This document shows, in pieces, positions 11,225 to 56,545 of a DNA stretch of 64,000 nucleotides. The translations under genes and the position numbers were made by a program. The stretch's first letter is position 1, and each line of letters starts with the position of its first letter. The stretch lies in NCBI RefSeq assembly GCF_013359755.1, contig NZ_JABMCJ010000086.1, positions 62,001 to 126,000 on the forward strand, given 5' to 3'. The notes below the pieces were generated by a model that searched no databases, was not told the origin of the DNA, and saw only the letters and a program-made list of their open reading frames with translations. Source of the DNA: Tardiphaga robiniae. Lineage in GTDB: Bacteria; Pseudomonadota; Alphaproteobacteria; Rhizobiales; Xanthobacteraceae.

Positions 11225-11270
11225 GCCGCTAGAGCAAGACGACCAGAAAAACATTCAGGGAGACCGCCTC

Positions 11271-11975: not shown

Positions 11976-11997
11976 TGACCTGATCGCAACGGCGCTA

Positions 11998-16859: not shown

Positions 16860-16888
16860 TTGACAGATTCAGGGAACGCATGCTCTTG
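16860..16888 (+). promoter_or_regulatory. Candidate housekeeping promoter of the gcv operon
   Basis: A perfect TTGACA -35 hexamer lies at 16860-16865, about 40 bp before the glycine riboswitch. No good -10 hexamer follows at 16-18 bp (best is CTCTTG/TCTTGT), so only the -35 element is convincing. Confidence 0.45.
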
Positions 16889-16902
16889 TGCCGGCGTTGA
16901 AA

Positions 16903-17085
16903 GACGTCACGTCGGGAGAGACCGGCCCCGTTTGGGCCGGCGCCGAAGGAGCAACCGCCCCGGAAACTCTCAGGCAAAAGGACCGCGTGACAGGTTAGCA
17001 TCTGGAAAGAGATGCCTTTGAGCCCGAATGGGCCAATGGCGTCCGCCGACGGGATAATACTCTCAGGCACAGCGACAGATGGGGC
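16903..17085 (+). promoter_or_regulatory. Tandem glycine riboswitch
   Basis: Two glycine aptamers stand in series. The first has the conserved GGGAGAG, CGCCGAAGGAGCAA and GGAAACTCTCAGGCAAAAGG elements (about 16911-16981). The second has TGGAAAGAG, GGGCCAATGGCGTCCGCCGACGG and ATACTCTCAGGCAC (about 17002-17070). Position just ahead of gcvT and glycine-cleavage genes fits the known on-switch: glycine binding raises expression of the cleavage enzymes. Confidence 0.95.
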
Positions 17086-38261: not shown

Positions 38262-38303
38262 ATCTCCGTACTCGTCGTGAATGATCGTCTGGCTGCGCAA
38301 CGG

Positions 38304-41286: not shown

Positions 41287-41517
41287 CCAGAACTGGCTAC
41301 GTTGGATTTGAACAGGGTGGCTCGGGGGCCGCCAAGGTCCGGTAATACCGGCAGGCGGGGTCGGCCGCGAGCCCCCATATAGGGCAAATTGGCCCGTGAG
41401 ACCAATGCCAATATGCCACTTTCGGCCGCAGCCAGTGCCGGGCCGAATCACGTCTTGGCGGGCTCGCGGCGAGACCAAAACGGCGCCACGAGCCCGGAAT
41501 CTCGCATTAGGGCGGGG

Positions 41518-41760
41518 TTATTGGCCGTGGCTGACCAGCACGTCGTTGCAGGCCTTGCTGATCTTGGGGCGGTTTTCCTTCAGGCAGGACAGAACAACGA
41601 GGTCGCCCTGATCCATGACGGCGCGGCAGAGCTTCTGCACGTCGCGGGTGCAGGCCTTCTGCTCCGCGTCGGTGCCGCTGCGGGGCTGGTTTTGCTGGGC
41701 CAATGCGCCGGTCGAGGCAGATGCGGAAAGCACGGACAGTACCAGGAGAAATTTACGCAT
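41518..41760 (-). CDS. Small secreted protein with a Cys-rich GLG1-type repeat
   Basis: This 80-residue protein has a signal peptide (cleavage near GALAQQ) and a mature part with four cysteines, C37, C45, C59 and C71, in ACTRDVQKLCRA, VVLSCLKEN and KACNDVL. This matches the cysteine-rich repeat pattern found in GLG1-like and many short rhizobial periplasmic proteins, with two likely disulfides. The function is unknown. A fragment of intergenic repeat family A lies at about 41492-41504, between it and hpnC. Confidence 0.85.
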   Translation of the reverse strand: MRKFLLVLSVLSASASTGALAQQNQPRSGTDAEQKACTRDVQKLCRAVMDQGDLVVLSCLKENRPKISKACNDVLVSHGQ

Positions 41761-42198
41761 TGTCTTCCTTCAGTATGGTGACGAGATCACAGCCCGTGTG
41801 GTGCATAGCATAAACTGAAACATTCGCATCGCCGGGAAGGCTTTATCTTCAGGCACATCGGCGAATTCGCGGCGATGGATGCAATCAGGACACAGAACAT
41901 TCCCGCCACCACAGACACGAATAAATGCGGCGAAAGCTTGCGGACATGGCCGCACTGGCTGCAGGACCGGCTGATGCCACCCCGCAGGACAAGATAAGGT
42001 TTTACGACAATTGTTCAGACGCGCATCATCTCCACCCGTTCCGCTCCGGGAACCTTCGCGCTTGTGGGCGGTGACATGTTACTTTTACAATCGTCCAATT
42101 ATGATCGCTCTATTGAACCTAAAGATGTGCAGCGACACTTAAACTTCGATGAGGCGCGGCATAACTCGGTTACACAGCGCTATTTTGGGAAAACTTAC
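41761..42198. other. 438-bp spacer with a possible decayed zinc-ribbon reading frame
   Basis: No intact gene is supported here. On the minus strand, about 42000-41800, one frame reads SRSCSQCGHVRKLSPHLF and the next frame continues VCGGGNVLCPDCIHRREF. Together these look like a zinc ribbon (C-x2-C ... C-x2-C) broken by a frameshift. The remainder shows AT-richer sequence near 42080-42180 that may hold the promoter of the next plus-strand gene. Confidence 0.4.
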
Positions 42199-42699
42199 AT
42201 GACATTCCATTCTGCAAAGCGGTTCGGGCACGCCCTCAAGGCCGCCGGCGCTGGCGCGATCCTGCTGCTGTCGGTATCCGCAGGCCATGCCCAGTCCGGA
42301 CCGTTCGCCGGCTTCGACGGGGCCTGGAGCGGTACCGGAACGGTCTCCATGTCGGACGGCTCCTCGGAGCGCATTCGCTGCCGGGCAACCTACAAGGTGG
42401 ATGGCGGCGGCAGCGCCCTGGCGCAGACGCTGCGCTGCGCCAGCGACAGCTACAAGTTCGACCTCTCCAGCAATGTCACCAGCCAGGGCAACAACGTGTC
42501 CGGCAGCTGGAGCGAAGCCAGCCGCAACGTCTACGGCAATCTGGTCGGCAAGGCGGGCGGCGGCCAGATCGACGTCTTCGTCGAGGCCGCGGGCTTTGCG
42601 GCCAACATCACGCTGACGACCCGCGGTAACAAGCAGTCGGTGTCGATCAGCTCCAAGGGCGAAATTCGCGGCGTTTCGATCAATATGGTCAAGAGCTGA
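42199..42699 (+). CDS. Secreted protein of unknown function
   Basis: The 166-residue protein has a clear signal peptide (hydrophobic AAGAGAILLLSVSAG, cleavage near AGHAQS). The mature part looks like a beta-rich lipocalin or META-like fold: FDGAWSGTGTVSMSDGSSER, RCRATYKVDGGGSALAQTLR, SGSWSEASRNVYGNLVGKA and TLTTRGNKQSVSISSKGE. I do not recognise an enzyme motif. The ATG at 42199 was chosen because it starts the signal peptide; the frame is open back to 42064 without similarity. No obvious operon partner. Confidence 0.78.
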   Translation: MTFHSAKRFGHALKAAGAGAILLLSVSAGHAQSGPFAGFDGAWSGTGTVSMSDGSSERIRCRATYKVDGGGSALAQTLRCASDSYKFDLSSNVTSQGNNVSGSWSEASRNVYGNLVGKAGGGQIDVFVEAAGFAANITLTTRGNKQSVSISSKGEIRGVSINMVKS

Positions 42700-42750
42700 G
42701 ACGTGACCCGTGCATCAGGTGCGAAGCCACAGGCTTCGCGCCGCAGAAAT

Positions 42751-44259
42751 TCATTCGACCTCGTCGCATAGATAGCGATTGATCTGGTAGGGACGCGCTG
42801 CCAGTCCCGGACAGAACGATGCCACCACAGGCTCCAGGCGCTCGAACAGACTACGCCATTCCGCATTGAGTATCTCGAGCCGATCTCGCGCGGCCTCCGC
42901 TTCCCGTGCCAGTCTGGCCATGTCCAGCGTCAGCAAGCGGCCGTCGCGAACCACGAAGCTGCCGCCGATCATCACGTGGCGCACCGAGGTCGCATCTTCG
43001 GTATGAACCAGTTGGTTGACGCTCCAGTTGTGCGGGATCCAGTTGATCGCCCCGAGATCCAGGAACACGATGTCGGCCTTGTAGCCCGGCGCCAATACGC
43101 CGGTATGCGACAGCCCGAGCGCCCGCGCCGAGCCGGCCGTGGCAGCATAATAAATCTCCTCGACCGCAGCCCATTTGCGTGGGTCGGGCCCTTGTACCTT
43201 GGAGGCCATCGATGCGTAGCGCATCGCCTCATACATGTTTTGATTGTCGGAGCAGTTCGCACCGTCTGTCCCGATGCCGACATTGACGCCGAGGTCGAGC
43301 GCACGGCGCATCCTGAACAGGCCGTTGCCCAGCCGCATGTTGCTGCCAGCGTTATGCGCCAGCGAGGCGCCACGGTCGGCCATCAGCCGAAAATCATCAT
43401 CATCGAGCCAGACCGCATGAGCCGCGGAGAATTGTTCGTTGATCAGGCCTAGTTCGTCGAGATGCGCAATCAGCGTCTTACCGTAACGTTCCTTGCCGAC
43501 CACCGCCTGCACCTTGCTCTCGCCGACATGGCTCTGCAGGGGAATGCCATGGTCGCGTGCCAGCTTGGCGCAGCCGCACATGAAACTGTCGCTGCAATGG
43601 ATCGGAATGGTCGGCGCCACCGCAGGTCGGATGTCATGTGAAGACCATTTCCAGCGTTCGAGAATCGATCCGATGGCCGAAATAGTCCGATCGCCCGGCC
43701 CCAGCCTTAGCCGATCGACCTGGTGCTGAAGATCTTCCGGAAGCGCATCGCGCAGTCCGGGAATGGCTTCGTAGAAACTGTGATCCGCGACCATCGGCGC
43801 GATGACGGCACGCATGCCGACTTCCGCATAGGCCTCAGCGACGGCATCCATGCCGTCGATGCTCGGTGCCGGATATTCGTAGTACAGATCATAGGCCGCG
43901 GTGCAGCCTTTCAGCACCATTTCGGCAGCGCAGATCTGGGTCGTGAGCTTCTTGTCCTGCAGCGAGCGGCTACCGCTGATCCACGGGGCGGCAGCCAGCA
44001 GCACCTCCAGCGTCCAGCGATCGCCCTGTCCGCGGCCGAGGCCACCATGGCCATGGGTATGGGCGTTGACGAGGCCGGCATGAACCAGCATGCCGGAGGC
44101 ATCGACGATGTTCGCGCCGTCTGGCGCGGCAAGATCAGGCCCCATTTCCGCAATGATCCCGTCTTTGATCAGAATATCGCCCTTCACGCCGCGGCGGGAC
44201 CCCGCGTCGGAGATCAAAGCGTCACGGATCAGTACATATCCCGGATAGTTCTTTGCCAT
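42751..44259 (-). CDS. Amidohydrolase-superfamily deaminase (guanine/cytosine deaminase or ATZ/TRZ type)
   Basis: The 502-residue metal-dependent hydrolase carries GMLVHAGLVNAHTHGHG with the HxH metal ligands, IPLQSHVGESK, SAAHAVWLDDDD and the catalytic GIGTDGANCSDNQN. Relatives deaminate or dechlorinate heterocycles such as guanine, cytosine, S-adenosylhomocysteine or s-triazines. The C-terminal composite domain (GVLAPGYKADIVFLDLGAI) is standard. No signal peptide is seen. It lies 10 bp after an ABC permease gene and is probably the last gene of the importer operon, so its substrate is likely what the importer brings in. Confidence 0.88.
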   Translation of the reverse strand: MAKNYPGYVLIRDALISDAGSRRGVKGDILIKDGIIAEMGPDLAAPDGANIVDASGMLVHAGLVNAHTHGHGGLGRGQGDRWTLEVLLAAAPWISGSRSLQDKKLTTQICAAEMVLKGCTAAYDLYYEYPAPSIDGMDAVAEAYAEVGMRAVIAPMVADHSFYEAIPGLRDALPEDLQHQVDRLRLGPGDRTISAIGSILERWKWSSHDIRPAVAPTIPIHCSDSFMCGCAKLARDHGIPLQSHVGESKVQAVVGKERYGKTLIAHLDELGLINEQFSAAHAVWLDDDDFRLMADRGASLAHNAGSNMRLGNGLFRMRRALDLGVNVGIGTDGANCSDNQNMYEAMRYASMASKVQGPDPRKWAAVEEIYYAATAGSARALGLSHTGVLAPGYKADIVFLDLGAINWIPHNWSVNQLVHTEDATSVRHVMIGGSFVVRDGRLLTLDMARLAREAEAARDRLEILNAEWRSLFERLEPVVASFCPGLAARPYQINRYLCDEVE

Positions 44260-44269
44260 TGCACCTGAC

Positions 44270-45061
44270 CTAGTTGTTGTCGTTGGAGTTGCTGTCCAGA
44301 TTGCTCGACCACGGCACGAGCAGGCGCTCGATGACCTCGACCAGTTGGAACAGCGCGATGCCCATGATGGCGAGAATCACCACCGCGCCGAACGCGACCG
44401 GTGTGCGGAAGAACGCCATCGAGGTCTGGATCAGATAGCCGAGGCCGGAATCCGCGCCGACGAATTCGGCCACCACGGCACCCACTACGCAAAGCGCAGC
44501 CGCGACGCGCAATCCGCCGAACACGAAAGGCAAAGCGTATGGCAGACGGATGCGCAGCAATTCCTGGACACGGGTCGCGCGGCACGAACGTCCGAGTTCG
44601 ATCAGTTCGGGCGGCGCGGCCAAGAGTCCCGCGACAGAACTCACCACGAGCGGGAAGAACGCGACGAGGAAGGTAATGATCACCCTTGAAAACTCGTTGG
44701 CCCCGAGTGCCACCAGAAGAATCGGCGCCAGTGCCACCTTGGGCACCGACTGGGTGAGCACCAGCAGTGGATAGATTGCCGCCGACATCGTGCGCGAGCT
44801 TGCAATCAGCATGGCAAGCGGCAGGCTGATCGCAATGGAAGCCGCGAGCCCGAGCAGAACGGTCCGCAGCGTAGTCACCGTATGCATGGCGATGTTGGGC
44901 CAGACCGGTACTACCGCTGTCCAGATCGCGCTCGGCGACGGCAACAGGAACGGCCTGATGCCAAACCCTCGGCAGAGCAGTTCCCAGCCGAGCAAGAATG
45001 TCAGGGTCGACACGATGACCGGCAGGTTGCGGCGGCCCCAGTCTGCAGCATTAGTGAGCAT
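44270..45061 (-). CDS. ABC transporter permease (SsuC/TauC/ThiX-like)
   Basis: The 263-residue inner-membrane protein has about six membrane segments and the permease EAA-like loop ELIELGRSCRATRVQELLRI, with LVLTQSVPKVALAPILLVAL and VVGAVVAEFVGADSGLGYLI typical of nitrate/sulfonate/pyrimidine-precursor importers. The ATG at 45061 was chosen because GGAG lies six bases upstream; a start at 45076 is possible. It overlaps the ATPase gene by 11 bp. Confidence 0.9.
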   Translation of the reverse strand: MLTNAADWGRRNLPVIVSTLTFLLGWELLCRGFGIRPFLLPSPSAIWTAVVPVWPNIAMHTVTTLRTVLLGLAASIAISLPLAMLIASSRTMSAAIYPLLVLTQSVPKVALAPILLVALGANEFSRVIITFLVAFFPLVVSSVAGLLAAPPELIELGRSCRATRVQELLRIRLPYALPFVFGGLRVAAALCVVGAVVAEFVGADSGLGYLIQTSMAFFRTPVAFGAVVILAIMGIALFQLVEVIERLLVPWSSNLDSNSNDNN

Positions 45062-45818
45062 GGGCCGCTCCGCCATAGATCCGGTCGCGGATCAGTTTCG
45101 AGCAGCGGTGGAATTCCGCGCTGGCTTCCTGGTCGAACGATCGCGGGCGAGGCAGATTGACCTCCACGATCTCCGCGACACGGCCCGGCCGCGGCGACAT
45201 CACCACGACCCGATCCGCAAGCAGCACGGCTTCGGAAATCGAATGAGTCACGAACAGCACCGCCATCGGATTTGCCTGCCACAACGCGAGCAGGGACAGA
45301 CTCATCTCCTCGCGCGTCAGAGCATCGAGTGCGCCGAATGGTTCATCCATGAGCAGGATGCGCGGCTGTTGCACAAGGCCGCGGCAGATCGCGACGCGTT
45401 GCTGCATGCCACCAGAGAGTTCACGCGGCATCCGATGCTCGAAGCCCGCGAGACCCGCCGAATGCAGCAGCACGCGAGCGCGCTCGCGCGCTTCGGGCCC
45501 ATCACCGCCAGACAGGCTCAATGGAAATGCAACGTTGCGCTCCACATTCATCCACGGCAGCAGGGTCGGCGATTGGAACACCATCGCCGTGCCTTTCGTC
45601 GCCCCTGTGACCAGTTTGCCGTCGAGCGTGAGATGCCCGATATCGGGCAGCACCAATCCGGCCACCATGCGCAGCAACGTCGACTTGCCGCAGCCGGAGG
45701 CACCGACGATGGCGACGAACTCCCCCGGCCGTATGGAGATCGTGACGTCGTCCAGCGCCTGCACATGGCCGCCGCGGCGGGTCTTGAAGGTCTTGCCGAC
45801 CCGGGCAAGCGAGATCAC
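45051..45818 (-). CDS. ABC transporter ATP-binding protein (SsuB/TauB-like)
   Basis: The 255-residue ATPase has Walker A GASGCGKST, the Q-loop VFQSPTLLPWMNV, the signature LSGGMQQRVAICRGLV, Walker B RILLMDEPFGALDAL and the switch histidine in LFVTHSISEAVLLADR. The subtype is that of nitrate/sulfonate/taurine importers. The frame opens with GTG at 45818, whose GTGA overlaps the stop of the binding-protein gene; the longer frame to 46067 lies inside that gene and is not real. Confidence 0.93.
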   Translation of the reverse strand: MISLARVGKTFKTRRGGHVQALDDVTISIRPGEFVAIVGASGCGKSTLLRMVAGLVLPDIGHLTLDGKLVTGATKGTAMVFQSPTLLPWMNVERNVAFPLSLSGGDGPEARERARVLLHSAGLAGFEHRMPRELSGGMQQRVAICRGLVQQPRILLMDEPFGALDALTREEMSLSLLALWQANPMAVLFVTHSISEAVLLADRVVVMSPRPGRVAEIVEVNLPRPRSFDQEASAEFHRCSKLIRDRIYGGAAHAH

Positions 45819-46795
45819 GGGACGAAACTGTCGTCGATGGCCTGGGCCGGATTCCACGACGCATCGAGTTTGAGGCTCTCGGCCACGGCCTTCCACGTAT
45901 CTGCCAGGCGATCTTTTGCGAAGTGCCCCTGCCCTGTTGCACGCTGGTGATCGTTGAAGATGAAGCCCATCGTGGCCTTCTGCGACGCTTCGCATTCGTC
46001 CTGCAGGACTTCCGGATTTTTCTGCACATGGAGCTTGCAGGTCTCGCCCGGATTGTCGCGCGCCCACGCGTAACTCTTCACAGCGGCACCGACGAAACGC
46101 CTCACGAGATCCGGATTGGTCTTGATCGTCTCATCGGTGGCGATCAACGATGACGCATAGATCGCAAAGCCCGCCGAGACGAAGGGCAGCGCTACGATTT
46201 CCTCGCCGGCCTGCGTGGCTGCCTTGTTCTGATAGTATTGATGGATGGAGTAGAATGGCGCCGCATCGACGCGCTTGGCAATCAACATCGCCGCCATTGC
46301 CGATGCGTCCGTCGTGACCCAGGTTACGCTCTCCGGGTCGATTCCGACCCGGCGTGCGACTTCCGGAAAATAGATCCGGTGACTGTTGCCCGGGCTCACG
46401 GCGATTTTCTTGCCGGCAAGATCCTTGAAGCCCTTGATCGCTGACGATTTCAGAATGAACAGCGAGTGCGGCGAATAGGTATAGACCGCCACAATCGATT
46501 TGACCGGTACTGACTGTTGCGCGCGTCCCGCGAGCACCGCGCCGACGTCGGCAACGCCGAACTTGGCCGCGCCTGCCGCCACCTTGTTCACCGTGTCGCC
46601 CGATCCATAACCCCTGACGATGGTGAGATCGATACCAGCGTCCTTGAAAAATCCGCGCTGCTGGCCCGCAAAATACGCCGCGTGCTCCCCTGTCGGGATC
46701 CAGTCGAGCTGCAATATGGCCTTGTCCTCGGCGTATGCGCCTTGCGACAGGCCTGCGGCCAATACAACCGCCAGCAGTAAACGCTTCATGCTCAT
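45815..46795 (-). CDS. ABC substrate-binding protein, NMT1/THI5-like
   Basis: The 326-residue protein has a signal peptide (MKRLLLAVVLAAGLSQGAYA) and an NMT1/THI5-like periplasmic binding fold: LQLDWIPTGEHAAYFAGQQR, KDAGIDLTIVRGYGSGDTV, SLFILKSSAIKGFKDLAGKK and VDAAPFYSIHQYYQ. Relatives bind pyrimidine precursors of thiamine, nitrate or sulfonates, so the ligand is uncertain. The ATG at 46795 follows GAGG. It is the first gene of the importer operon and is divergent from a LysR regulator. Confidence 0.9.
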   Translation of the reverse strand: MSMKRLLLAVVLAAGLSQGAYAEDKAILQLDWIPTGEHAAYFAGQQRGFFKDAGIDLTIVRGYGSGDTVNKVAAGAAKFGVADVGAVLAGRAQQSVPVKSIVAVYTYSPHSLFILKSSAIKGFKDLAGKKIAVSPGNSHRIYFPEVARRVGIDPESVTWVTTDASAMAAMLIAKRVDAAPFYSIHQYYQNKAATQAGEEIVALPFVSAGFAIYASSLIATDETIKTNPDLVRRFVGAAVKSYAWARDNPGETCKLHVQKNPEVLQDECEASQKATMGFIFNDHQRATGQGHFAKDRLADTWKAVAESLKLDASWNPAQAIDDSFVP

Positions 46796-46890
46796 GAACA
46801 ACCTCGTGAATGTTGCAGTCCGGCTGCCGCCGTTCTCCTCCATTCCCAAGCAACACTGATGCCGAGATACCGGCTGGCATTGTCCAAAAA

Positions 46891-46907
46891 TGAAAGTATG
46901 ATTTTCA
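46891..46907. promoter_or_regulatory. Candidate LysR-type operator
   Basis: TGAAA-GTATGAT-TTTCA is a dyad with 5-bp arms in an AT-rich stretch about 30-45 bp before the LysR start, inside the 139-bp divergent spacer. LysR regulators usually bind such T-N11-A dyads next to their own gene. Assignment rests on position and form. Confidence 0.5.
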
Positions 46908-46934
46908 ATTATAGACAGCGGCGGGGCAGCAAAG

Positions 46935-47834
46935 ATGGCCGCGTTTACATGGGACGACCTGCGCGTGGTGCTGGCCATCGAGTCCAGCGGCACGGCGCTT
47001 GGCGCTTCCAAGCAGCTGGATGTCAGCCACAGCACGGTCCTGCGCCGGCTGGCAACGCTCGAGCTCGCGCTGGACACCAAACTGTTCCGGCGCAGTGAGG
47101 GCCGCCTGATTGTGAGCCCGCCCGCCGCCGCGCTGATCGCGAAGGCACGATCAATTGCGGAAGCCCTCGACGCGCTTCCGCAACTGATCGATGGCCCTCA
47201 TTCAGAGCTGGAAGGGGTCGTTCGCGTTGCCGCGCCCCACGCATTGATCTGTCACGCGCTGACCGATGCCTTCGCCGATTTCCGCAACACGCACCCTTCG
47301 ATCCGGATCGCACTATGCGCCGACATGCAGTTCGACGAATTCCGGCGCGGCCACGCCGACGTCGCACTGCGGATCAGTCTTGCGGTTCCCAACGAACTCG
47401 GAATCCGCCGGCTCTGCGACTACCGCTTTGCCCTTTACGCCCGTGATGATCTGGCACTCCGCCTGCGCGAGGGTGCCACGTTGGCGGAGATGCCTTTTAT
47501 CCTTCTCTCCGACGCAAGCCGCGAGATGCCGGAGCGGAAGTGGATGGTCAGTCTCGCCAAGGCGCGCGCGCCGGCGGTGGAAACCAGCTCGACCGTTTCG
47601 CTGCGCGCGGCGGTGGCCTCTGGCCTGGGCGTCGGAGTGCTTCCCTGCTACGTGGGCGATGCCCTGCCTGGCGTCACGCGTATCGAGATGGGTCCTGCGA
47701 CGCCCCGCGAGGGCATCTACCTGATCACCCATCCGACCCAGAGCAAGCTGGCCAGGTCGCGTGCGGTTGCCGACTTCCTGGTCAAGTTCATAGCGCGCAA
47801 TCACGACATGTTTTCCGGCGTCAGACGTAGCTGA
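46935..47834 (+). CDS. LysR-family transcriptional regulator
   Basis: The 299-residue protein has an N-terminal winged helix-turn-helix (FTWDDLRVVLAIESSGTALG, ASKQLDVSHSTVLRRLATLE, TKLFRRSEGRLIVSP) and a C-terminal effector domain with the usual periplasmic-binding-protein fold (VRVAAPHALICHALTD, ALRISLAVPNELGIRRL, SLRAAVASGLGVGVLPCYVG). It is divergent from the SBP-ATPase-permease-amidohydrolase operon and probably regulates it in response to the imported compound. Confidence 0.93.
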   Translation: MAAFTWDDLRVVLAIESSGTALGASKQLDVSHSTVLRRLATLELALDTKLFRRSEGRLIVSPPAAALIAKARSIAEALDALPQLIDGPHSELEGVVRVAAPHALICHALTDAFADFRNTHPSIRIALCADMQFDEFRRGHADVALRISLAVPNELGIRRLCDYRFALYARDDLALRLREGATLAEMPFILLSDASREMPERKWMVSLAKARAPAVETSSTVSLRAAVASGLGVGVLPCYVGDALPGVTRIEMGPATPREGIYLITHPTQSKLARSRAVADFLVKFIARNHDMFSGVRRS

Positions 47835-47857
47835 GCGGCGGATGCAGCGCCGGTTGA

Positions 47858-50230
47858 CTACTTCTCTTGCTTCGCAAGAACCGAACTGCCCGTAAGGCGC
47901 TGCTGCAGATTGATCAGCCACATCGCGGTCGGGCGCAGGATGAACAGATCGGCCACCAGTGCCGCGACCATCGAGAAGGCGCTGAGCCAGCCGAACAGCC
48001 GCAGCGACGGCAGATCCGAGAACACCGTCACCACGAGGCCGCAGGCCAGCACCACCGTCGTCAGGATCAGCGCGGGACCAACGAGCACAGTCGCACGCTC
48101 GACGGCGATCGCGGGATCGGTGCCCGGCGTGTCTTCCAGACGCAAGCGGTTGAGGAAGTGGATCGTGGCGCTGAGGCCGAGACCGAAGGACACTGTCAGT
48201 GCCACCACACTGGCGAATTGCAGCCCCTCCCCGAGTAGCCACAATACGAAGCCGGCCAGCACCACCGGGAAGATGCCCGGCAGGATACAGGCCAGCATCA
48301 CCACCCACGAGCGGAACGCGAGGCCGATGAAGACGGCGACCAATCCGAATTCGATGGTCAGGCCGTGATTGAGCTTCTCGATCATCCCGGCGCTGTTGCG
48401 CGCCGCGATGGCCGAGAGACCAGTCACCGCGATCTCATAGCCCGGGTGCTTGGTGCGAACGGCGTTCAGCGCATTGTCGAGCTTGTCGACCACCGGCAGG
48501 ATCTTGCTCGAATCGCTGTCGGGCACACGGCCGGACACCACCACCGCCGTCTGATCCGCCGAGATGAAGCGGCGCACCAGATGTTCGGGTATCACGCTGA
48601 CATATTCCTTCAGCGTCGCGACATCCGACGAGCCGGCCTTTTCCGCCAGCCAGCGCCGCAGCGTTTCCAACGACCAGACATTGCCGACACCCGCCTGCTT
48701 CTCGACCATGGCGTGGACTTCGGCGATGGTTGCCAACGTGTCCGGCGAATAAAGATCCGCGCCCTTCGGAAATTCGATCAGCACGTCGATCGGATTGGCG
48801 CCGGTCAGCTTGGCGTCGAGCCGTCCGCTGGCCGCGACCGCCTGCTCCTTGTCCGGCACCTGATCGGCCAGCCGATAGCGCGGCTCGAGATTGGCGTAAA
48901 CGATCCCGAGACCAACGACGACGACGAGCGAGATCAGGCTGAACAGGCCAGGACGGCCGACCATGCGCACCGCAATCCAGTAGCAGAAGGCGCGCAGCGC
49001 CTGCACGCCGGCATCGGCGGTCTGAAACTTGGCGGCAAAGATCTTCTCGTTGCGCACCAGCAGCACGCCGAACACCGGCACCAGCGACAGCACCGCGACC
49101 AGCGCGATGATGGTCGCGGTGAGACCAGCCTCGCCGAAGGCGCGGATCAGGTCCGAGTCGGAGAACTGCAACGCCAGGAACGAAATGCCGGCGGTGCCAT
49201 GGGTGAGGACGCAGGCGGGACCCACGACACGAACCGCATTCGTAAATGCTGAATACTTGTCCTCGCCTGCAATCAACCGGTCACGCGCCGCGAAAGTGAG
49301 CTGCATCGAGTCGGCAAAACTGATCACCATGATCAGCGGCGTCATCACGTTGAGGAACATGTTGAGGCTGAAGCCGGCCCAGCCGAGCGCGCCGAGCGAC
49401 AACAGGATCGCCAGCAGCGGCGGAAACGCCGCGATGATCATGAACGAGATCTTGCGGAAGAAGATGATCGCAATGACGCAGCCGGCGAGAATGCCGGCGA
49501 TGTTATAGATCAGGCCGTCGCGCTCGACCGCATTGCGGATTTCGAGCTGCATCACCGGCACGCCCGACAATTCCTTGGTCAGACCGCTATTGGCCAGGTC
49601 CTCATTCATGGTCTTGCGGATATCGGCGACGACGGTGCTGAGCTTGCTGTTGCTGACCACGGCCGGGTCCAGCGACAACACTACCAACGCCAGAGTTCCA
49701 TCGTCGGACAAGAGCTTGCCGCGGATCAGCTCGTTCTGCTTCACCGTCTCGATGAACTTGTCGTAGTCGGCGCCTTCAGGAAGATCGTTGGGAAACAGCG
49801 CTGCCGGCAACTTGCCGGGGGCCGGCGTCTGACGCGCCGAGAAGATCGAGATCAGCCCGCGCACGCCATCGACCAATTGCAGGTCGGTGACGAGGTCGCG
49901 CATCTTTCCAAGATTGTCGCGCGCAAGCAGCGTCTTGCCTTCGAGCACCACGAGCACGTCGAACTCGGTGGACGGGAAGCGCTTCGTCACTTCCTCGTAT
50001 TGCTTGTATTCCTTGCTGTCAGAACGAAATAGCTGGCTCAGCGAATCGTCGATCTTGATGCGCTGGATGCCAAAGATCGCACCGATCACCAGCGCGAGCA
50101 GGATCACGCAGGACAGTACCGGCGCCTTCACCGCGATCAGACCGATGCGCTCGAGCCCGAAGGCGATGCTGATCGGCCCCTTGCGCAATTTATTCATATC
50201 CGCGTCGTGGGGGGGAACCGTATCGTGCAT
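47858..50230 (-). CDS. RND/MMPL-superfamily permease
   Basis: The 790-residue protein has two repeats of one membrane segment, a periplasmic domain, and five to six further segments. Examples are VLSCVILLALVIGAIFGIQR, MIIAAFPPLLAILLSLGALG, and SFADSMQLTFAARDRLIAGE in the first half; VVALTVSFGLGLSATIHFLN is the matching second-half segment. It is a distant relative of HpnN and the COG1033 lipid exporters, but it is a different gene from hpnN at 30315-32903. The substrate is unknown; position 214 bp after eutC and near hpnP allows, without proof, a role with hopanoids. Confidence 0.85.
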   Translation of the reverse strand: MHDTVPPHDADMNKLRKGPISIAFGLERIGLIAVKAPVLSCVILLALVIGAIFGIQRIKIDDSLSQLFRSDSKEYKQYEEVTKRFPSTEFDVLVVLEGKTLLARDNLGKMRDLVTDLQLVDGVRGLISIFSARQTPAPGKLPAALFPNDLPEGADYDKFIETVKQNELIRGKLLSDDGTLALVVLSLDPAVVSNSKLSTVVADIRKTMNEDLANSGLTKELSGVPVMQLEIRNAVERDGLIYNIAGILAGCVIAIIFFRKISFMIIAAFPPLLAILLSLGALGWAGFSLNMFLNVMTPLIMVISFADSMQLTFAARDRLIAGEDKYSAFTNAVRVVGPACVLTHGTAGISFLALQFSDSDLIRAFGEAGLTATIIALVAVLSLVPVFGVLLVRNEKIFAAKFQTADAGVQALRAFCYWIAVRMVGRPGLFSLISLVVVVGLGIVYANLEPRYRLADQVPDKEQAVAASGRLDAKLTGANPIDVLIEFPKGADLYSPDTLATIAEVHAMVEKQAGVGNVWSLETLRRWLAEKAGSSDVATLKEYVSVIPEHLVRRFISADQTAVVVSGRVPDSDSSKILPVVDKLDNALNAVRTKHPGYEIAVTGLSAIAARNSAGMIEKLNHGLTIEFGLVAVFIGLAFRSWVVMLACILPGIFPVVLAGFVLWLLGEGLQFASVVALTVSFGLGLSATIHFLNRLRLEDTPGTDPAIAVERATVLVGPALILTTVVLACGLVVTVFSDLPSLRLFGWLSAFSMVAALVADLFILRPTAMWLINLQQRLTGSSVLAKQEK

Positions 50231-50444
50231 ACCCTGTCCAGTCCTGTCGTCAGCGGCGTCTGCCTAGCAAGCGTCGCGGGCAGTAGTAAGGCTGGAATCG
50301 GCGAGACCGAACAGCGCTAGCCCTTGAAAACATGCGGTAAATTTGCCGCGGGCAGATGTAGCAGGTCTGTATGACATATCGCAAGGCGGCGCGCGCGCCG
50401 AGGTTGCGTTTCAGGTCACAAAATGGAGCGCAGAGGCTGTTGTT

Positions 50445-51230
50445 TCATGCTGGTGCAACGAGCGGTGCTACCAGTTGCAGACCGCTTTCGTCTTTCAGAG
50501 CCACACCGGTGATGTTGCGATTCAGCCCTTCGCGCGCCAGCCAGGCAATCTTGCTCGCTGCCTCCTCGAAGGACAGACCGGCCACCTGGATGTTCGACAC
50601 GCAGTTGCGCGCAGCGTCCGTCAGACCCGGCTGCGGTGCGAAGGTCAGGTAGGCACCGAGACTCTGCGGCGCCGAGAGACCCGGACGTTCGCCGATCAGC
50701 ATGATCGTCATCCGGGCCCTCAATAACGCACCGATCTCGTCGCCGAGCGCGACTCTGGCCCCGCCGGCAACCACAACAGCGCCGATCCCGACCGCCGCCA
50801 ATTTGGGCATTAACGCGCCTAGTAGGCCAAGCGCATGCGCATTGACCGCAGCCGGAGACAGGCCGTCCGCAATCACGATCACCAGATCGCACGCGGCGCT
50901 GTCGCGACCTTCAAGCATCTCCTGTGACTCGCGAGACAGTCGGCGGCCGAGATCGGGACGCTTGAGATAGTCGGCCCGATCTGCGACCTGGCTCGTCACC
51001 ACCAGCGCGCTCGTCCCCAGCCCGGCCAGTGCGGCCGCGATGGCTTCGGCCTCGAAGGGCGCATGGACCGCGTCACGTGCGCGGGCATGGTCGAGCGTGA
51101 AATCAAGCAGGGCCCGCGTGGTCAGGCTGGCTCCGGCCCGGCCGAGCCCGACACGCGCCGGCGTCAACGCCCGCAGCTCCGCGAGGGAGCGCTGCGGCAC
51201 CGGCGGCGTCACATCATTCCGATCTGTCAT
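50445..51230 (-). CDS. eutC: Ethanolamine ammonia-lyase small subunit
   Basis: The 261-residue light chain, with EutB, forms the adenosylcobalamin-dependent lyase that turns ethanolamine into acetaldehyde and ammonia. Markers are [56 protein letters not shown] and [17 protein letters not shown]. It starts 16 bp after the hpnP stop codon, so it is most likely on the hpnP transcript rather than directly coupled to eutB. No eut microcompartment genes are nearby. Confidence 0.95.
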
Positions 51231-51246
51231 GACACCAACTTATCGC

Positions 51247-52830
51247 TCATTCGGCCGGAACGGCAGCGTCCTGCAGTTTCAGCGAATAATAGGACGCGTT
51301 GGTCTGACCACCGGACGCATCGCGGGCAAAGTTGATCAGGTGGTGCGCCACCATGATCCCGCTGATGAGATATTCGATCTCGCCACGGGCCAGCCGACGG
51401 AGCGCGAATTTCCAGAACGCCCGCTTGTAATCACCAAGCACGCCGACCTTCCAGAAGATGTTGCGCAGCATGACCAGCCCGAGCCGGATGCTTTTCCAGG
51501 TGAGCATGGCGCCGACCGGCGGCTTGATCCGATTGGGATAGGTGTGGCGGATCTGGTACTCGAAGCGCTCGAGCAGCTTCTCCGGCACATAGGCGCTGCC
51601 CATGGCGCGCCGCCAGCTTTTCACCACGTCCTCATACGGCAACAGGAAGTCGACGTTGGAATCGCGGCCCTCGTCCTCGTTCAGGCGTCCTTCCTTCTTC
51701 AACCTGTCCCAAAGCGGCGTCTGCGGCAGCGCCTGCAGCAGGTTGATGGTCAGAAGCGGAATCTGTGACGTTTCCACGAACTCGAGCAAATGCTGGCCGG
51801 TCTCGGGCTTGTCGGTATCGAGGCCGAGGATGATGCCGGACACGACTTCCATGCCGAAACTGTTCAGCGTCTCGATCGCCTCCATGATAGGGACCATCAT
51901 GTTGTGATCTTTCTTCATCGCCTTGAGGGCGACGGGATCGGGCGTCTCGATGCCGCAGAAGATCGTGCCGAACCAGGCTTCGCGCATCAGCGAAAGGATT
52001 TCCGGCCGCTTGGCGATGTTCAGCGTCGCCTCGCAGGACAGGCGCAAGACAAAACCGGTCCTCTTCTGCCATTCGACCAGATGCGGCAGCAGATCGAGTG
52101 CGGCCTTGCGGTTGCCGATGAAGTTGTCATCGACGAAATACACTGAGCCCATGATGCCGCATTCGAGCAGCTTGTCGAGTTCGGCGGTGATCTGCTCAGG
52201 CGACTTCAGGCGCGGATTGCGACCATAGAGGCCGGGGATATCGCAGAATTCGCACTGATACGGGCAGCCCGAGGAATACTGGATGCTGCCCAGGAAGTAG
52301 CGCGGAATATCGGCCAGTTCATAGGCCGGAATCGGAAACCTGGTCATGTCCAGACGGTCGGTGGTCTTCAGCACGACCTGCTGGTCCGGCCGCGACGTAT
52401 CCTTTTCCAGGATATCGATCAGTTGATCGGTGGCATCACCGAGTTCGCCGATATGGAGATAGTCGAAAGCTGGGTAGTAGTCCGGACAGGAGGATACCGA
52501 GGGTCCGCCGATCGCCACCGGAAGATCGTAGGAATGCGCGCGGTAGCAGATGTCGTTCATCTGCGTGCGCTGGATGTGCATGCCTGACACCAGCACAACT
52601 TCGGCCCACAGGAAATCATTGGGCGTGGCGGCGCGGATGTTCTCGTCGATGAAACGGACTTCCCAGTTCTCGGGCATATAGGCGGCAATCAGCAGCAAGC
52701 CCTGGGGAGGCATGAAGGCCTGAACGCCGTCGGTCAGAGGGTATGAATATTCAAACGTGCCAAATGAAGACGTGTATCGCGGAAAGACGCACAGAATGCG
52801 CCGGACCGTCTGCCTGCCCTCAGCTCTCAT
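51247..52830 (-). CDS. hpnP: HpnP hopanoid C-2 methylase (B12-binding radical SAM)
   Basis: The 527-residue protein has an N-terminal cobalamin-binding-like region (about 1-140; FMPPQGLLLIAAYMPENWEV) and a radical SAM domain with C-x3-C-x2-C in SSGCPYQCEFCDIPGLYG, followed by GSVYFVDDNFIGNR and GTIFCGIETPDP. Its C-terminal extension, with YEDVVKSWRRAMGSAYVPEK, is typical of HpnP. It methylates hopanoids at C-2. The ATG at 52830 follows AGGAATTTTG and replaces a TTG one codon upstream. A perfect EcfG promoter lies 54-78 bp before it, as reported for R. palustris TIE-1 hpnP control. It stands between eutB and eutC. Confidence 0.92.
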   Translation of the reverse strand: MRAEGRQTVRRILCVFPRYTSSFGTFEYSYPLTDGVQAFMPPQGLLLIAAYMPENWEVRFIDENIRAATPNDFLWAEVVLVSGMHIQRTQMNDICYRAHSYDLPVAIGGPSVSSCPDYYPAFDYLHIGELGDATDQLIDILEKDTSRPDQQVVLKTTDRLDMTRFPIPAYELADIPRYFLGSIQYSSGCPYQCEFCDIPGLYGRNPRLKSPEQITAELDKLLECGIMGSVYFVDDNFIGNRKAALDLLPHLVEWQKRTGFVLRLSCEATLNIAKRPEILSLMREAWFGTIFCGIETPDPVALKAMKKDHNMMVPIMEAIETLNSFGMEVVSGIILGLDTDKPETGQHLLEFVETSQIPLLTINLLQALPQTPLWDRLKKEGRLNEDEGRDSNVDFLLPYEDVVKSWRRAMGSAYVPEKLLERFEYQIRHTYPNRIKPPVGAMLTWKSIRLGLVMLRNIFWKVGVLGDYKRAFWKFALRRLARGEIEYLISGIMVAHHLINFARDASGGQTNASYYSLKLQDAAVPAE

Positions 52831-52883
52831 CAAAATTCCTCTGTGAATGCATCAGCGGTCCCCATAAGCGCTGAACCTTCAAT

Positions 52884-52908
52884 AACGTCGCCGAGCTAAA
52901 ACCGTTCC
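52884..52908 (-). promoter_or_regulatory. EcfG (general stress sigma) promoter of hpnP
   Basis: On the minus strand GGAAC (52908-52904), a 16-bp spacer and CGTT (52887-52884), an exact EcfG match. The start of transcription would be near 52877, giving a leader of about 45 nt before the hpnP ATG. eutC is likely on the same transcript. Confidence 0.9.
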
Positions 52909-53055
52909 ACTCCTGCCGAATACTTTGAGCGATCTAATCACGACGTCCGAATCTGGGCCAGAATTTCTTCAAGATTGTGGCGGGCGGTGACAAGGTCGTG
53001 ACCAGCTCCGCGCAAGTGCGCACAAAGCGCCAAGCCTTATGACGGTTTATTGACG

Positions 53056-54438
53056 TCAGGCGATCAGACGCGCGGCCAGATCGGGCAGCAGGCCTTCCCG
53101 ATCGCGGATGCGAAGGTCCGCTCCGGAGAGCCCGACCCGTTGCAGCCAGTCGTCGAATTCCGGTGCGCGTTTGAGCCCAAAGAGGTCGCGGATATAGAGC
53201 GCGTCGTGAAATGACGTCGACTGGTAGTTCAGCATCACGTCGTCGGCACCGGGGACGCCCATCACGAAGGTCACGCCTGCCGCGGCCAGCAGCGTCAGCA
53301 AATTGTCCATGTCGTCCTGATCGGCTTCGGCATGGTTGGTGTAACAGACGTCGACGCCCAGCGGCAGGCCAAGCAGCTTGCCACAGAAATGATCCTCCAG
53401 CCCGGCACGGATGATCTCCTTGCCGTCATACAAATATTCCGGCCCAATGAAGCCGACGACGCTGTTCACCAGCAATGGGTCGAACGCCCGGGCCACGGCA
53501 TAGGCCCGCGCTTCCAAAGTCTGCTGATCGACGCCGTGATGGGCGTTGGCCGACAGAGCCGAGCCCTGCCCGGTCTCGAAATACATAACGTTCTGGCCAA
53601 GCGTGCCACGTTTCAGCGAAAGCCCGGCGGCATGAGCTTCCTTCAGGATCGCCAGATCGATGCCGAAACTTCTATTGGCGGCCTCTGTCCCGGCGATCGA
53701 CTGAAACACCAGATCGACCGGAGCGCCCTGGTTGATGAGATCAAGACTGGTCGTGACATGGGTGAGCACGCAACTCTGGGTCGGAATATCCAGCTTGGTG
53801 ATGACATCGTCGAGCAGCCGCACCAACCCGCCCAGCACCGCCGGATCGTCGCTCGCCGGATTGATGCCGATACAGGCATCGCCGGAGCCCAGCATCAGCC
53901 CGTCGAGAATGGATGCCGTGATGCCCCTGATATCGTCGAACGGGTGGTTCGGCTGCAACCGCACGCTCATGCGCCCGCGCAACCCGATGGTATTGCGAAA
54001 GCGCGTGATCACCTCGCACTTCCTGGCCACCAGGATCAGGTCCTGATTGCGCATCAGCTTCGAGACCGCGGCGGCCATCTCCGGCGTGATGCCGCGGGCG
54101 ACGGTCTGAAGGACTTGCGGCGTGGCCGCGTCTGACAGCAGCCAGTCACGAAAGCCGCCGACGGTCAGCGACGAGATCGTGGAGAATGCGGCGGCATCAT
54201 GCGTATCGACGATAAGACGCGTGACCTCGTCGTCCTCGTAGGGCACCACCATTTCCTGCAGGAATTGCCTGAGCGGTACGTCGGCGAGCGCCATCCGCGC
54301 CGCGATCATCTGCTCGGCGGTCTCGGCTGCAATCCCGGCCAACCTGTCGCCGGAGCGCGGCGGCGTTGCCTTGGCCATGAGGTCGCGCAGATCCGCGAAG
54401 ACATGCTTATGGTCACCGATGGCGTGGCGATAGATCAT
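53056..54438 (-). CDS. eutB: Ethanolamine ammonia-lyase large subunit
   Basis: The 460-residue catalytic chain (E. coli EutB has 453) is a TIM barrel binding ethanolamine and adenosylcobalamin with EutC. Highly conserved stretches are LRGRMSVRLQPNHPFDDIR, ACIGINPASDDP, MYFETGQGSALSANAHHGVD, NSVVGFIGPEYLYDGKEI and VDVCYTNHAEADQDDMDN. The ATG at 54438 gives the family N-terminus (MIYRHAIGDHKHVFADLRDL); a much longer frame upstream lies inside the FAD-oxidoreductase gene. It begins 32 bp after that gene's stop, so it may be read from the upstream transglutaminase operon. Confidence 0.96.
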   Translation of the reverse strand: MIYRHAIGDHKHVFADLRDLMAKATPPRSGDRLAGIAAETAEQMIAARMALADVPLRQFLQEMVVPYEDDEVTRLIVDTHDAAAFSTISSLTVGGFRDWLLSDAATPQVLQTVARGITPEMAAAVSKLMRNQDLILVARKCEVITRFRNTIGLRGRMSVRLQPNHPFDDIRGITASILDGLMLGSGDACIGINPASDDPAVLGGLVRLLDDVITKLDIPTQSCVLTHVTTSLDLINQGAPVDLVFQSIAGTEAANRSFGIDLAILKEAHAAGLSLKRGTLGQNVMYFETGQGSALSANAHHGVDQQTLEARAYAVARAFDPLLVNSVVGFIGPEYLYDGKEIIRAGLEDHFCGKLLGLPLGVDVCYTNHAEADQDDMDNLLTLLAAAGVTFVMGVPGADDVMLNYQSTSFHDALYIRDLFGLKRAPEFDDWLQRVGLSGADLRIRDREGLLPDLAARLIA

Positions 54439-54470: not shown

Positions 54471-55670
54471 CTAGACGTGCCGCCCCGCGGCAACGCCGGA
54501 AGACCACGCCCACTGGAAGTTGAAGCCGCCGAGATGGCCGGTGACATCGATGACTTCGCCGATGAAATATAGCCCCGGCACCGATGTCGCTTCGAACGTC
54601 TTCGATGACAGTTCTGTGGTGTCCACACCGCCAAGGGTTACCTCGGCCGTGCGATAGCCTTCGGTGCCATTCGGCCGCACGCGCCATTCCTTCACTGCAG
54701 CCGCTACCGACGCCAGAAGCTTGTCCGAAAAATCCGCCAGCCGCGGCGGGCCGACGATCTTGTCGGCGATCATCTGGGCCAATCGCTTGGGCAGCATATC
54801 GCCGAGCACCGTCGCCAGTTCCTGCCGCGGTCGTTCGCGGCGTGCCTCCTTCAAGGCGGCGAGCACATCGCGCGTCGGCGCCATGTCGATGACGACATCG
54901 AGCCCCTCCCGCCAATAGGATGAAATCTGCAGGATCGCCGGACCGCTGAGACCGCGATGGGTGAACAGCAGCGCCTCGTCGAATTTGGCCTTGCCGACGC
55001 TGACGACGGTATCAACGGCAACGCCAGCGAGGTCCTTGAATTGTGCAAGCGCCGCAACGTCGAAGGTCAGCGGCACCAGCGCGGCACGCGGCGCGACCAT
55101 CTTCAGCCCGAATTGTTGCGCCAGTTTGTAGCCAAAGGCACTGGCACCCATTTTCGGGATCGAAGGCCCGCCCGTGGCGATCACCAACGACTGACCGCGA
55201 TATTCGCCCTGATCCGTAGCGACGACAAAACCACTCTCGTTCTTCGTCACACCCAGAATGCCGACGCCAAGCCGCATCTGCACGTCGCTGCGGCGGTTTT
55301 CGTCCAGCAGCATGTCGATGATCTGCTGGGACGAGCCATCGCAGAACAATTGCCCGCGCGTCTTTTCGTGATAGGCGATGCGATATTTCTCGACCAGCGC
55401 GATGAAGTCTTGCTGGGTGAAGCCCTTCAGTGCGGATTTACAGAATTGCGGGTTCTGCGACAGGAAATTCGCCGGCGCCGTATGCAGGTTGGTGAAATTG
55501 CAGCGCCCACCGCCGGAGATACGGATCTTCTCGCCCGGCGCCCTCGCCTGCTCCAGCAGCATCACCGAGCGACCGCGTTGCCCCGCAATGCCGGCGCACA
55601 TCAGGCCGGCCGCACCGGCGCCGAGAATGACGATGTCGGCCGTGTTATGCGCGCGACGGACGATGGTCAT
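54471..55670 (-). CDS. FAD-dependent oxidoreductase, HI0933/BaiN family
   Basis: The 399-residue flavoprotein begins with TADIVILGAGAAGLMCAGIA, followed by the family-specific KIRISGGGRCNFTNLHTAP. Later segments are LVIATGGPSIPKMGASAFGY, FTHRGLSGPAILQISSYW and the C-terminal FIGEVIDVTGHLGGFNFQWA. Relatives act on bile-acid double bonds or have unknown substrates. The ATG at 55670 overlaps the transglutaminase stop (ATGA), so it is translationally tied to the transglutaminase/ATP-grasp genes. Confidence 0.9.
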   Translation of the reverse strand: MTIVRRAHNTADIVILGAGAAGLMCAGIAGQRGRSVMLLEQARAPGEKIRISGGGRCNFTNLHTAPANFLSQNPQFCKSALKGFTQQDFIALVEKYRIAYHEKTRGQLFCDGSSQQIIDMLLDENRRSDVQMRLGVGILGVTKNESGFVVATDQGEYRGQSLVIATGGPSIPKMGASAFGYKLAQQFGLKMVAPRAALVPLTFDVAALAQFKDLAGVAVDTVVSVGKAKFDEALLFTHRGLSGPAILQISSYWREGLDVVIDMAPTRDVLAALKEARRERPRQELATVLGDMLPKRLAQMIADKIVGPPRLADFSDKLLASVAAAVKEWRVRPNGTEGYRTAEVTLGGVDTTELSSKTFEATSVPGLYFIGEVIDVTGHLGGFNFQWAWSSGVAAGRHV

Positions 55671-56545
55671 TCCAGCAACAGCACGTCGACGGCGACGGCG
55701 AGCTTCTGCTTGCGGGCACCGACGATCACGCCATCCACCGGTGACACGTCGGAGAAGTCGCGGCCGATCGCCAGTACGATATGATCGTTCTCGACCAAAA
55801 TGTCGTTGGTCGGATCGAAGCCGATCCAACCGAGTTCCTCACCACACCAGACCGACACCCAGGCATGGGTCGCGTCGGCGCCCTGCAGGCGTTCCTTGCC
55901 CGGCGGGGGAATGGTGCGCAGATAGCCGCTGACATACGCCGCGGGCAAACCGAGCCCGCGCATGCCCGCAATCATGATATGCGCAAAATCCTGACAGACG
56001 CCGTGGCGCTTATCCAGCACCTCCTGCAACGGCGTCGAGATCACCGTGGCCTTCGGATCGTATTTGAACTCGGTGCGGATGCGATGCATCAGATCGACGG
56101 CGCCCACGAGAATCCCGCGGCCTTCGGTAAAGCTCACCGCCGCATAGTCCGTGACGGCATCGATGATCGGCACCAGCGGACTGGCGAAGACATAACCAAT
56201 CGGCGACGCACCGCTGAGGTCGCTGGAATCGAACGCCGCCTCGCGGACGCTCTCCCAGGAAGGGCTATCGTCGCCGCGCCCCGGCGCAAAACGTTCGACA
56301 TAGACGCGCGACCGGCTGTCTATCCGCAGCACCCGATGCGGGGTTTCGATCAACACGCTTTCCGTCGGCGTGCCGAAGAAATCCGTCCGCATGGCGCGGG
56401 CCGCCGGCAGCGGCTTGATATCGACGCTGTGCGAGACCAGTTGCTGCCCGGCGCTGCTATTGGGCTGCAGCCGCAGCGAGCAGCGCGCATAGCTCACCGG
56501 GCTTTCATAGCTATAGGTCGTGACATGGCGGATTTCGTAGATCAC
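55667..56545 (-). CDS. Transglutaminase-like protein with N-terminal beta domain
   Basis: The 292-residue protein has the bacterial transglutaminase N-terminal domain (IRHVTTYSYESPVSYARCSL) and a transglutaminase core with the Cys-His-Asp triad: the cysteine in DKRHGVCQDFAHIMIAGMRG, the histidine in GADATHAWVSVW, and the aspartate in LGWIGFDPTND. These proteins are predicted peptidases or amide-forming enzymes of the ATP-grasp peptide-modification system. It overlaps the upstream ATP-grasp gene by ATGA and the downstream oxidoreductase gene by ATGA. Confidence 0.92.
   Translation of the reverse strand: MIYEIRHVTTYSYESPVSYARCSLRLQPNSSAGQQLVSHSVDIKPLPAARAMRTDFFGTPTESVLIETPHRVLRIDSRSRVYVERFAPGRGDDSPSWESVREAAFDSSDLSGASPIGYVFASPLVPIIDAVTDYAAVSFTEGRGILVGAVDLMHRIRTEFKYDPKATVISTPLQEVLDKRHGVCQDFAHIMIAGMRGLGLPAAYVSGYLRTIPPPGKERLQGADATHAWVSVWCGEELGWIGFDPTNDILVENDHIVLAIGRDFSDVSPVDGVIVGARKQKLAVAVDVLLLE

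Follow-up and report, generated by a model that had tools for sequence, protein, structure and literature searches.

The window analysed here is a 64,000-nt stretch of contig NZ_JABMCJ010000086.1 of Tardiphaga robiniae, and coordinates are given as window positions throughout. Within it hpnP, the gene assigned to the hopanoid C-2 methylase, resides between eutB and eutC, the genes encoding the large and the small subunit of ethanolamine ammonia-lyase. The minus-strand order is a gene for an enzyme dependent on flavin adenine dinucleotide (FAD), 35 bp, eutB, 225 bp, hpnP, 16 bp (51231-51246), eutC, 214 bp, and a gene for a transporter of the MMPL/RND type. The FAD-enzyme gene is possibly the first gene of the eutB transcript. 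A preliminary description of the locus had reported eutB, an EcfG-type promoter site, hpnP and, 16 bp on, eutC, and order, strand and spacing are confirmed by the coordinates (Table 1).

The spread of this arrangement, hereafter called split, was monitored in 159 genomes of the family, assigned to 47 genus codes. Genomes were searched for HpnP, EutB and EutC, and matches were joined by place. Code g1 is taken as Tardiphaga, g20 as the Nitrobacter group and g46 as Rhodopseudomonas rhenobacensis; g25 is plausibly Bradyrhizobium-like, g6 and g28 Rhodopseudomonas-like. hpnP was found in 77 genomes, eutB in 73. The order eutB-hpnP-eutC, whose survey across hpnP-bearing genomes had been proposed at the outset, is not peculiar to one genome, being found in 28 of the 77: 27 genomes carry the split pair only, and the window genome carries both a split and a contiguous pair. 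In 12 further genomes hpnP is accompanied by a contiguous eutBC pair elsewhere, 37 have hpnP and no eutB, 32 a contiguous eutBC and no hpnP, one has eutB at a contig end and no hpnP, and 49 have neither gene. All the other eutB copies having eutC as neighbour are contiguous, and the split pair is the sole EutB-EutC found in 27/28 split genomes. At the hpnP site both eut genes are thus present in 28 genomes, and neither was seen in 49, two of which (L229 and L243) have the upstream region cut by a contig end. A second set, overlapping the first and made of the best 80 of 290 loci (named loci), includes 65 loci with both eut genes, 13 with neither, one with eutC only (L006) and one with eutB in which the eutC side is cut off (L067). 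The split order occurs there in loci titled Bradyrhizobium, Tardiphaga and Rhodopseudomonas rhenobacensis, and neither gene in four titled Nitrobacter. In a wider sample of 297 genomes of the taxonomic order, searched for hpnP and eutB, hpnP was matched at E 1e-120 or better in 21; by comparison of places, eutB adjoins hpnP in 10/10 members of the same family (the window genome and nine of g25) and in 0/11 members of other families. In three genomes (L152, L153 and L154, from G060, G018 and G051) the open frames matched by EutB and by EutC are equally long within each genome (740-798 aa), suggesting fused, divergent EutB-EutC proteins.

Trees of EutB and EutC were quick ones, without bootstrap and with some long branches flagged, from which L150, L151, L184 and L188 were left out. 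With 43 contiguous and 3 fused-type rows for comparison, the 28 split EutB form one clade (support 100 in the Shimodaira-Hasegawa-like approximate likelihood ratio test, SH-aLRT), and so do the 28 split EutC (SH-aLRT 98). Since each subunit forms one supported clade, the split probably arose once, in the ancestor of the Bradyrhizobium-Rhodopseudomonas-Tardiphaga-Nitrobacter group, and would then have been inherited. On the HpnP tree (75 rows, the partial L229 and L243 being left out) 7 changes of the split label are required, or about six losses if the split arose only once. Trees and synteny support the view that both eut genes have gone several times, and hpnP has been kept. The eut genes are accordingly the variable partner, because many relatives keep hpnP in its hopanoid neighbourhood without either of them. 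Across losses the two genes are either both there or both absent, with L006 as the single exception observed, and this pattern suggests that the subunits still act jointly. As to the direction of the insertion, the trees would fit either hpnP entering a eutBC operon, or eut genes gathering around hpnP. In G141, a Rhodopseudomonas-like genome (L246, L182), no eut gene lies beside hpnP, and a contiguous eutBC belonging to a different clade resides elsewhere, an apparent replacement.

The genes hpnC, hpnD, hpnE and shc lie on the same strand about 6 kb past the transporter, shc starting about 13 kb downstream of hpnP. Among named loci with enough sequence, hpnC/hpnD are found downstream of hpnP, on the same strand and within 8 kb, in 63/68; shc is on the same side of hpnP in G123, G141 and G154. 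The transporter gene follows hpnP, with eutC between or not, in 77/80 named loci, the other three being too short. The locus is here the 5' arm of a hopanoid island, and the eut genes reside inside this island rather than in a free-standing eut operon. The earlier statement that hpnP lies inside the eut operon thus stands as to the position of hpnP between the two genes, and is better reversed as to which system hosts the other. Among the 49 hpnP genomes lacking the split, the transporter or one of hpnC/D/E/shc was found within 3.5 kb in 22 (the transporter in g20, g40, g45, g8 and G141, hpn genes in g26, shc upstream in one g12 genome). In the split g26 genome, G123, the eutB-hpnP-eutC trio lies about 1.4 kb upstream of hpnC. 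The position of hpnP upstream of hpnC-hpnD-hpnE-shc on the same strand (36288-52830; also L003-L082) contrasts with a published statement that squalene cyclase and HpnP show no synteny. The transporter is not HpnN (58 bits against a cut-off of 752 for TIGR03480), and no sequence relative of it was found in PDB at E 0.001. Open reading frames (ORFs) resembling methyl-accepting chemotaxis proteins lie directly upstream of eutB in two relatives (L003, 4928-6319; L050, 2946-6294), from which the window differs, as eutB directly follows the FAD-enzyme gene.

Table 1. Features at and around the split locus of T. robiniae (window positions)
Feature	Position	Strand	Basis
Aminoacetone-oxidase-family FAD enzyme, ends 35 bp before eutB	54474-55829	minus	TIGR00275, 401 bits against cut-off 184
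eutB, ethanolamine ammonia-lyase large subunit, 460 aa, split-type clade	53056-54438	minus	NCBIfam NF011649, tree, PDB relatives
eutB-hpnP intergenic region, 225 bp, with putative hpnP regulatory sites	52831-53055	minus	
28-bp element CCACAATCTTGAAGAAATTCTGGCCCAG, preceded by a conserved G; starts -150 from hpnP ATG, 72 bp upstream of GGAAC	52953-52980	minus	
EcfG-type promoter site GGAAC-N16-CGTT, GGAACGGTTTTAGCTCGGCGACGTT; starts -78 from hpnP ATG	52884-52908	minus	pattern match and conservation
hpnP, B12-type radical SAM hopanoid C-2 methylase, 527 aa; ATG at 52830	51247-52830	minus	homology and context
eutC, ethanolamine ammonia-lyase small subunit, 261 aa	50445-51230	minus	NCBIfam NF003971, tree
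MMPL/RND transporter	47858-50230	minus	PF03176
LysR gene	46935-47834		annotation
hpnC (in ORF 40405-41478), hpnD (39554-40462), hpnE (38304-39554), shc (36288-38300)	36288-41478	minus	core hopanoid cluster

The products of the split genes look like working enzymes. EutB scores 711 bits against a cut-off of 554 (NCBIfam NF011649), EutC 310 bits against 230 (NF003971), and solved relatives of the lyase are found in PDB (2qez, 3abo). The substrate residues of EutB, which we take to be R160, Q162, N193, E287 and D362 in the numbering of the enteric enzyme, are largely in place: R160, Q162 and N193 are kept in 28/28 split rows and in the second copy of the window genome, and positions 287 and 362 of the window EutB are F and V, with E and D occurring one residue later (MYFE, GVD) and matching in the 2qez alignment. 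Split copies are full length in 28/28 genomes (EutB 459-466 aa, EutC 257-270 aa). The pairwise ratio of nonsynonymous to synonymous substitution (dN/dS) against seven congeners is 0.05-0.11 for EutB, 0.14-0.21 for EutC and 0.01-0.17 for HpnP, values by which all three appear to be under purifying selection; the internal-stop test made along with them carries little weight, extraction having stopped at the first stop codon. HpnP carries a radical S-adenosylmethionine (SAM) domain (PF04055) with CxxxCxxC at residue 189, followed by PF13282/DUF4070. In its N-terminus no cobalamin-binding domain was found by Pfam at 1e-5, and several models of B12-binding radical SAM proteins match from residues 76-102, below their cut-offs. 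The name HpnP is given by homology and context, no HpnP model being among the 16 NCBIfam families matched; the protein is 75% identical to HpnP of R. rhenobacensis (L050).

A search of the window genome with the EutB and EutC models revealed a second, contiguous eutBC pair on another contig (C94:13061-15149). The view of one enzyme with separated subunit genes therefore holds for the window copy, and does not for this one. EutB and EutC of the two copies are 61% and 43% identical, respectively. The second copy falls outside the split clade in both trees, its EutB grouping with one from G114 (support 100), and the window genome is alone among the 28 split genomes in having an extra eutBC. Upstream of the second pair reside genes for an oligopeptide-type ATP-binding cassette transporter, a DeoR-like regulator, an amidohydrolase, an unassigned ORF, a kinase-like protein, whose family match is below its cut-off, and a HisN-like phosphatase. 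The run ending in this pair (L118, G000:C94:3000-22000, about 36-12195) resembles a catabolic operon, plausibly for an ethanolamine-containing compound.

The region between eutB and hpnP carries two putative regulatory sites. The first conforms to the EcfG promoter consensus, GGAAC-N16/17-CGTT. The strict pattern occurs 5 times in the window, against 0.8 expected, and 101 times genome-wide, against 149 for the reversed control; it has been dropped as stand-alone evidence for lack of genome-wide enrichment, and conservation must carry the site. A looser motif, GGAAC-N16/17-NGTT, was sought in the 300 bp upstream of hpnP, L229 and L243 being dropped as too short. The first base of the tetramer was widened to N after viewing the sequences, CGTT having given few sites in the named loci, and the widened form was then tested against four control motifs. 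Sites were regained in the Nitrobacter group and others. The loose motif precedes hpnP in 40/75 surveyed genomes, and each of the four controls in 0/75; among the named loci it was found in 21, the controls in 1, 0, 0 and 0. The site noticed earlier thus occurs more often than chance would allow, and is conserved in several genera. The motif was not found in the 300 bp preceding eutB (0/28), eutC (0/28) or the transporter gene (0/77), where one control matched once each before eutB and eutC.

The distribution of the site is uneven. It was found in g1 (7/8), g20 (7/7), g28 (7/7), g40 (6/6), g26 (5/6), g6 (2/2), g45 (2/2), g8 (1/1), g12 (2/5) and g3 (1/4), and in none of the genomes of g25 (7), g10 (5), g13 (3), g43 (3), g17 (2), g9 (2), g46 (1), or g22, g35, g37 and g38 (1 each). 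It starts about -60 to -85 from the hpnP ATG in g1, g20, g40 and g45, about -118 to -127 in most of g28 and g6, and -140 to -164 in g26. Split loci carry the site in 17/28 cases, non-split loci in 23/47 (Fisher p = 0.35, a descriptive value since rows are related). To judge from this comparison, the EcfG-type promoter goes with hpnP and not with the eut pairing, and stress control and eut linkage would be separable. The genome encodes NepR, the anti-sigma factor of EcfG (one match over cut-off), and the ORFs beside nepR resemble an extracytoplasmic function (ECF) sigma factor and PhyR, as judged by eye only. A strict EcfG-pattern match is also found elsewhere in the window, at 16873-16898, just before a glycine riboswitch (16902-16995, plus strand, 68.7 bits).

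The second site is a 28-bp element, the core of which is GCCACAATnTTGArrAATT...CAG. Copies were scored against the group consensus with a threshold of 20 of 28, a procedure that replaced a strict regular expression missing many copies. Scores of at least 20 were obtained in 105/155 hpnP upstream regions (75 surveyed and 80 named, from overlapping sets), and 1550 mononucleotide shuffles gave a maximum of 19; the consensus was built from the same sequences, and the comparison thus flatters the element. Elsewhere in the window genome it was found in one place, with 2 mismatches. Eleven relatives, chosen as carriers, have one match each at hpnP; G155 has a stray match besides, and in G024 the control matched once. 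Among the 12 genomes tested, the element would thus be close to unique in each. It was found in g1 (8/8), g25 (7/7), g40 (6/6), g20 (4/7), g6 (2/2) and g46 (1/1), and absent from g28 (0/7), g26 (0/6), g17 (0/2) and outer lineages; by locus type, 19/28 split and 9/47 non-split loci carry it. Its conserved bases are asymmetric. An RNA hairpin was considered and discarded, since changes in the arms disrupt base pairs without compensation, which makes a DNA site more likely. When a regulator acting on the element was sought nearby, no Pfam transcription factor was found in ten neighbouring ORFs of five loci, these being mechanical ORFs, some of which are perhaps not genes.

In 60 of the 62 named split loci in which the eutC start is recognisable (3/65 had none), eutC starts 20 bp or less from the hpnP stop, and in 12 named split loci the two genes overlap. 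Given such closeness, hpnP and eutC are very likely carried by one transcript, as the preliminary description had supposed. Between eutB and hpnP no terminator-like site was found, the sole one in the region being inside eutB and no better than chance. The simplest arrangement would be one long transcript from eutB through hpnP to eutC, with a promoter for hpnP inside it; eutC would then be read both behind hpnP, on the shorter transcript, and by transcription continuing from eutB. According to this scheme, an adenosylcobalamin-dependent ethanolamine ammonia-lyase, predicted to be functional, has its subunit genes on either side of hpnP, in this case inside a hopanoid island, and hpnP has a control region of its own, with an EcfG-type promoter in many lineages and the 28-bp element in an overlapping but different set. 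In lineages with the EcfG-type site, stress would raise hpnP, and eutC as a passenger, but not eutB. The lyase is a two-subunit enzyme, and extra EutC alone should not raise activity. As activity depends on a complex of the two subunits, stress need not increase it, and EutB would be limiting. Linkage has probably been retained by history and tolerable read-through, rather than by a function joining stress and ethanolamine. We consider this whole reading, with a working lyase flanking hpnP, one origin, several losses, and linkage kept by history and tolerable read-through, to be reasonably probable.

Several observations weigh against it. EutC evolves faster than EutB (dN 1.3 to 3.4 times), and the second, contiguous eutBC may make the split pair redundant in T. 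robiniae. The best match in this genome to an ethanolamine permease of the curated type scores 54 bits, below the cut-off of 382. In L006, a metagenome contig, hpnP is followed by eutC, and no EutB match was found in the 1683 bp upstream. Of the hpnP genomes lacking the split, 27, mostly of outer lineages, showed neither the transporter nor hpnC/D/E/shc within the distance searched. The split g17 genome G016 (L245) has no transporter gene, hpnC-E or shc in about 7.6 kb past eutC or in the 3.3 kb before eutB; as no hopanoid gene or transporter is found in 15 kb, the hopanoid setting of the split is common, not universal. The gap between phyR and nepR contains GGAAC-N16-CGTA and GGAAC-N16-CATT rather than the NGTT form that was counted, and the -10 required may hence be too strict; with a relaxed -10, sites are still missing in g25 (0/7), g17 (0/2) and g46 (0/1). 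Finally, the maintenance of the linkage across 8 genus codes could mean that the linkage itself is selected.

Among the other explanations, a dedicated regulator acting on the 28-bp element might control hpnP, and the flanking eut genes might be there because hopanoid C-2 methylation and the breakdown of ethanolamine respond to a single membrane-lipid signal other than general stress. The presence of the element in g25, which lacks the EcfG site, speaks for this view, and its absence from the split loci of g28, g17 and g26 speaks against it; we regard it as unlikely. The preliminary description had favoured a stress link, in which eutC rides on an EcfG-driven hpnP transcript so that ethanolamine set free from membrane lipids can be consumed during the synthesis of 2-methylhopanoids under stress, the small subunit limiting activity. 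EcfG is said, in work of 2013 attributed to Kulkarni, to control hpnP in R. palustris TIE-1; eutC does lie close behind hpnP, and site and split are combined in g1 (7/8 split genomes), g6 (2/2), g28 (6/6), g20 (1/1) and g26 (1/1). Yet the split occurs without the site in g25 (7/7), g17 (2/2) and g46 (1/1), and the site without eut genes beside hpnP in g20 (6 genomes), g40 (6), g26 (4) and g45 (2). Because the site does not track the split, and is missing before eutB in all 28 split genomes, linkage of ethanolamine use and 2-methylhopanoid synthesis under stress is not what the comparative evidence appears to show, and this claim is rather unlikely.

The split eut genes could alternatively be decaying passengers devoid of lyase activity, the contiguous eutBC doing the work where ethanolamine matters. 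Repeated loss, the second pair of the window genome and the faster evolution of EutC are in line with decay; full-length frames in all split genomes, dN/dS of at most 0.21 for both subunits, the retention of the presumed active-site residues and the lack of any other EutB-EutC in 27/28 split genomes make it improbable. Ethanolamine ammonia-lyase depends on adenosylcobalamin, and HpnP belongs to the B12-type radical SAM enzymes, so that one might think of a cobalamin-themed operon, in which two B12-dependent enzymes stay together because their production is switched on or off jointly with the supply of cobalamin. At gathering threshold neither the window nor the 19 kb surrounding the second eutBC yielded a cobalamin riboswitch, several lineages keep hpnP without eut genes at the site, and in 12/77 hpnP genomes the only eutBC is contiguous and lies elsewhere, all of which makes such an operon very improbable. 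That the GGAAC-N16-CGTT site is a chance match, as the missing genome-wide enrichment of the strict pattern and the genus-dependent spacing between the looser site and the ATG might indicate, is scarcely credible in view of the 40/75 upstream regions against none for any control, the occurrence of GGAAC-N16-NGTT in 0.8% of the 300-bp tiles of the window, and the related sequences near the nepR and phyR genes of the same genome.

There is no settled account of why hopanoids, whose C-2 methylation is behind a widely used molecular fossil, are modified in this way by bacteria, and the locus offers two handles on the matter: a genus-spanning gene order tying hpnP to a lyase, and a conserved element found almost only at hpnP. 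Natural comparison sets are provided by lineages with split and site (Tardiphaga, Rhodopseudomonas-like), split without site (Bradyrhizobium-like), and site without eut genes (Nitrobacter). For the enzyme field, this is an example from nature in which the two subunits of a complex are encoded on either side of an unrelated gene that has a control region of its own. Of the loose ends, the 28-bp hpnP element holds the greatest interest. Searches of an open-access library, outside which most subscription papers fall, turned up no account of the split arrangement.

Compared with the contiguous eutBC of most eutB-bearing genomes of the family, the split locus encodes the same two subunits, scoring over curated cut-offs, in the same order and on the same strand, with the presumed substrate residues present. 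It differs in having hpnP and its control region in between, and in that split EutB and EutC form clades of their own. The enzymes themselves belong to known families and are ordinary, and the operon architecture is what is unusual. With hpnP of TIE-1, reportedly under EcfG, the locus shares an HpnP homologue with an EcfG-type site upstream; here the site is seen to vary across the group. Gene clusters of the hpn type are described in PMC12583986. With the alphaproteobacterial hopanoid cluster, as presented there, the locus shares hpnC-hpnD-hpnE-shc downstream on the same strand, and differs in that hpnP, the eut genes and the MMPL transporter gene form its 5' arm.

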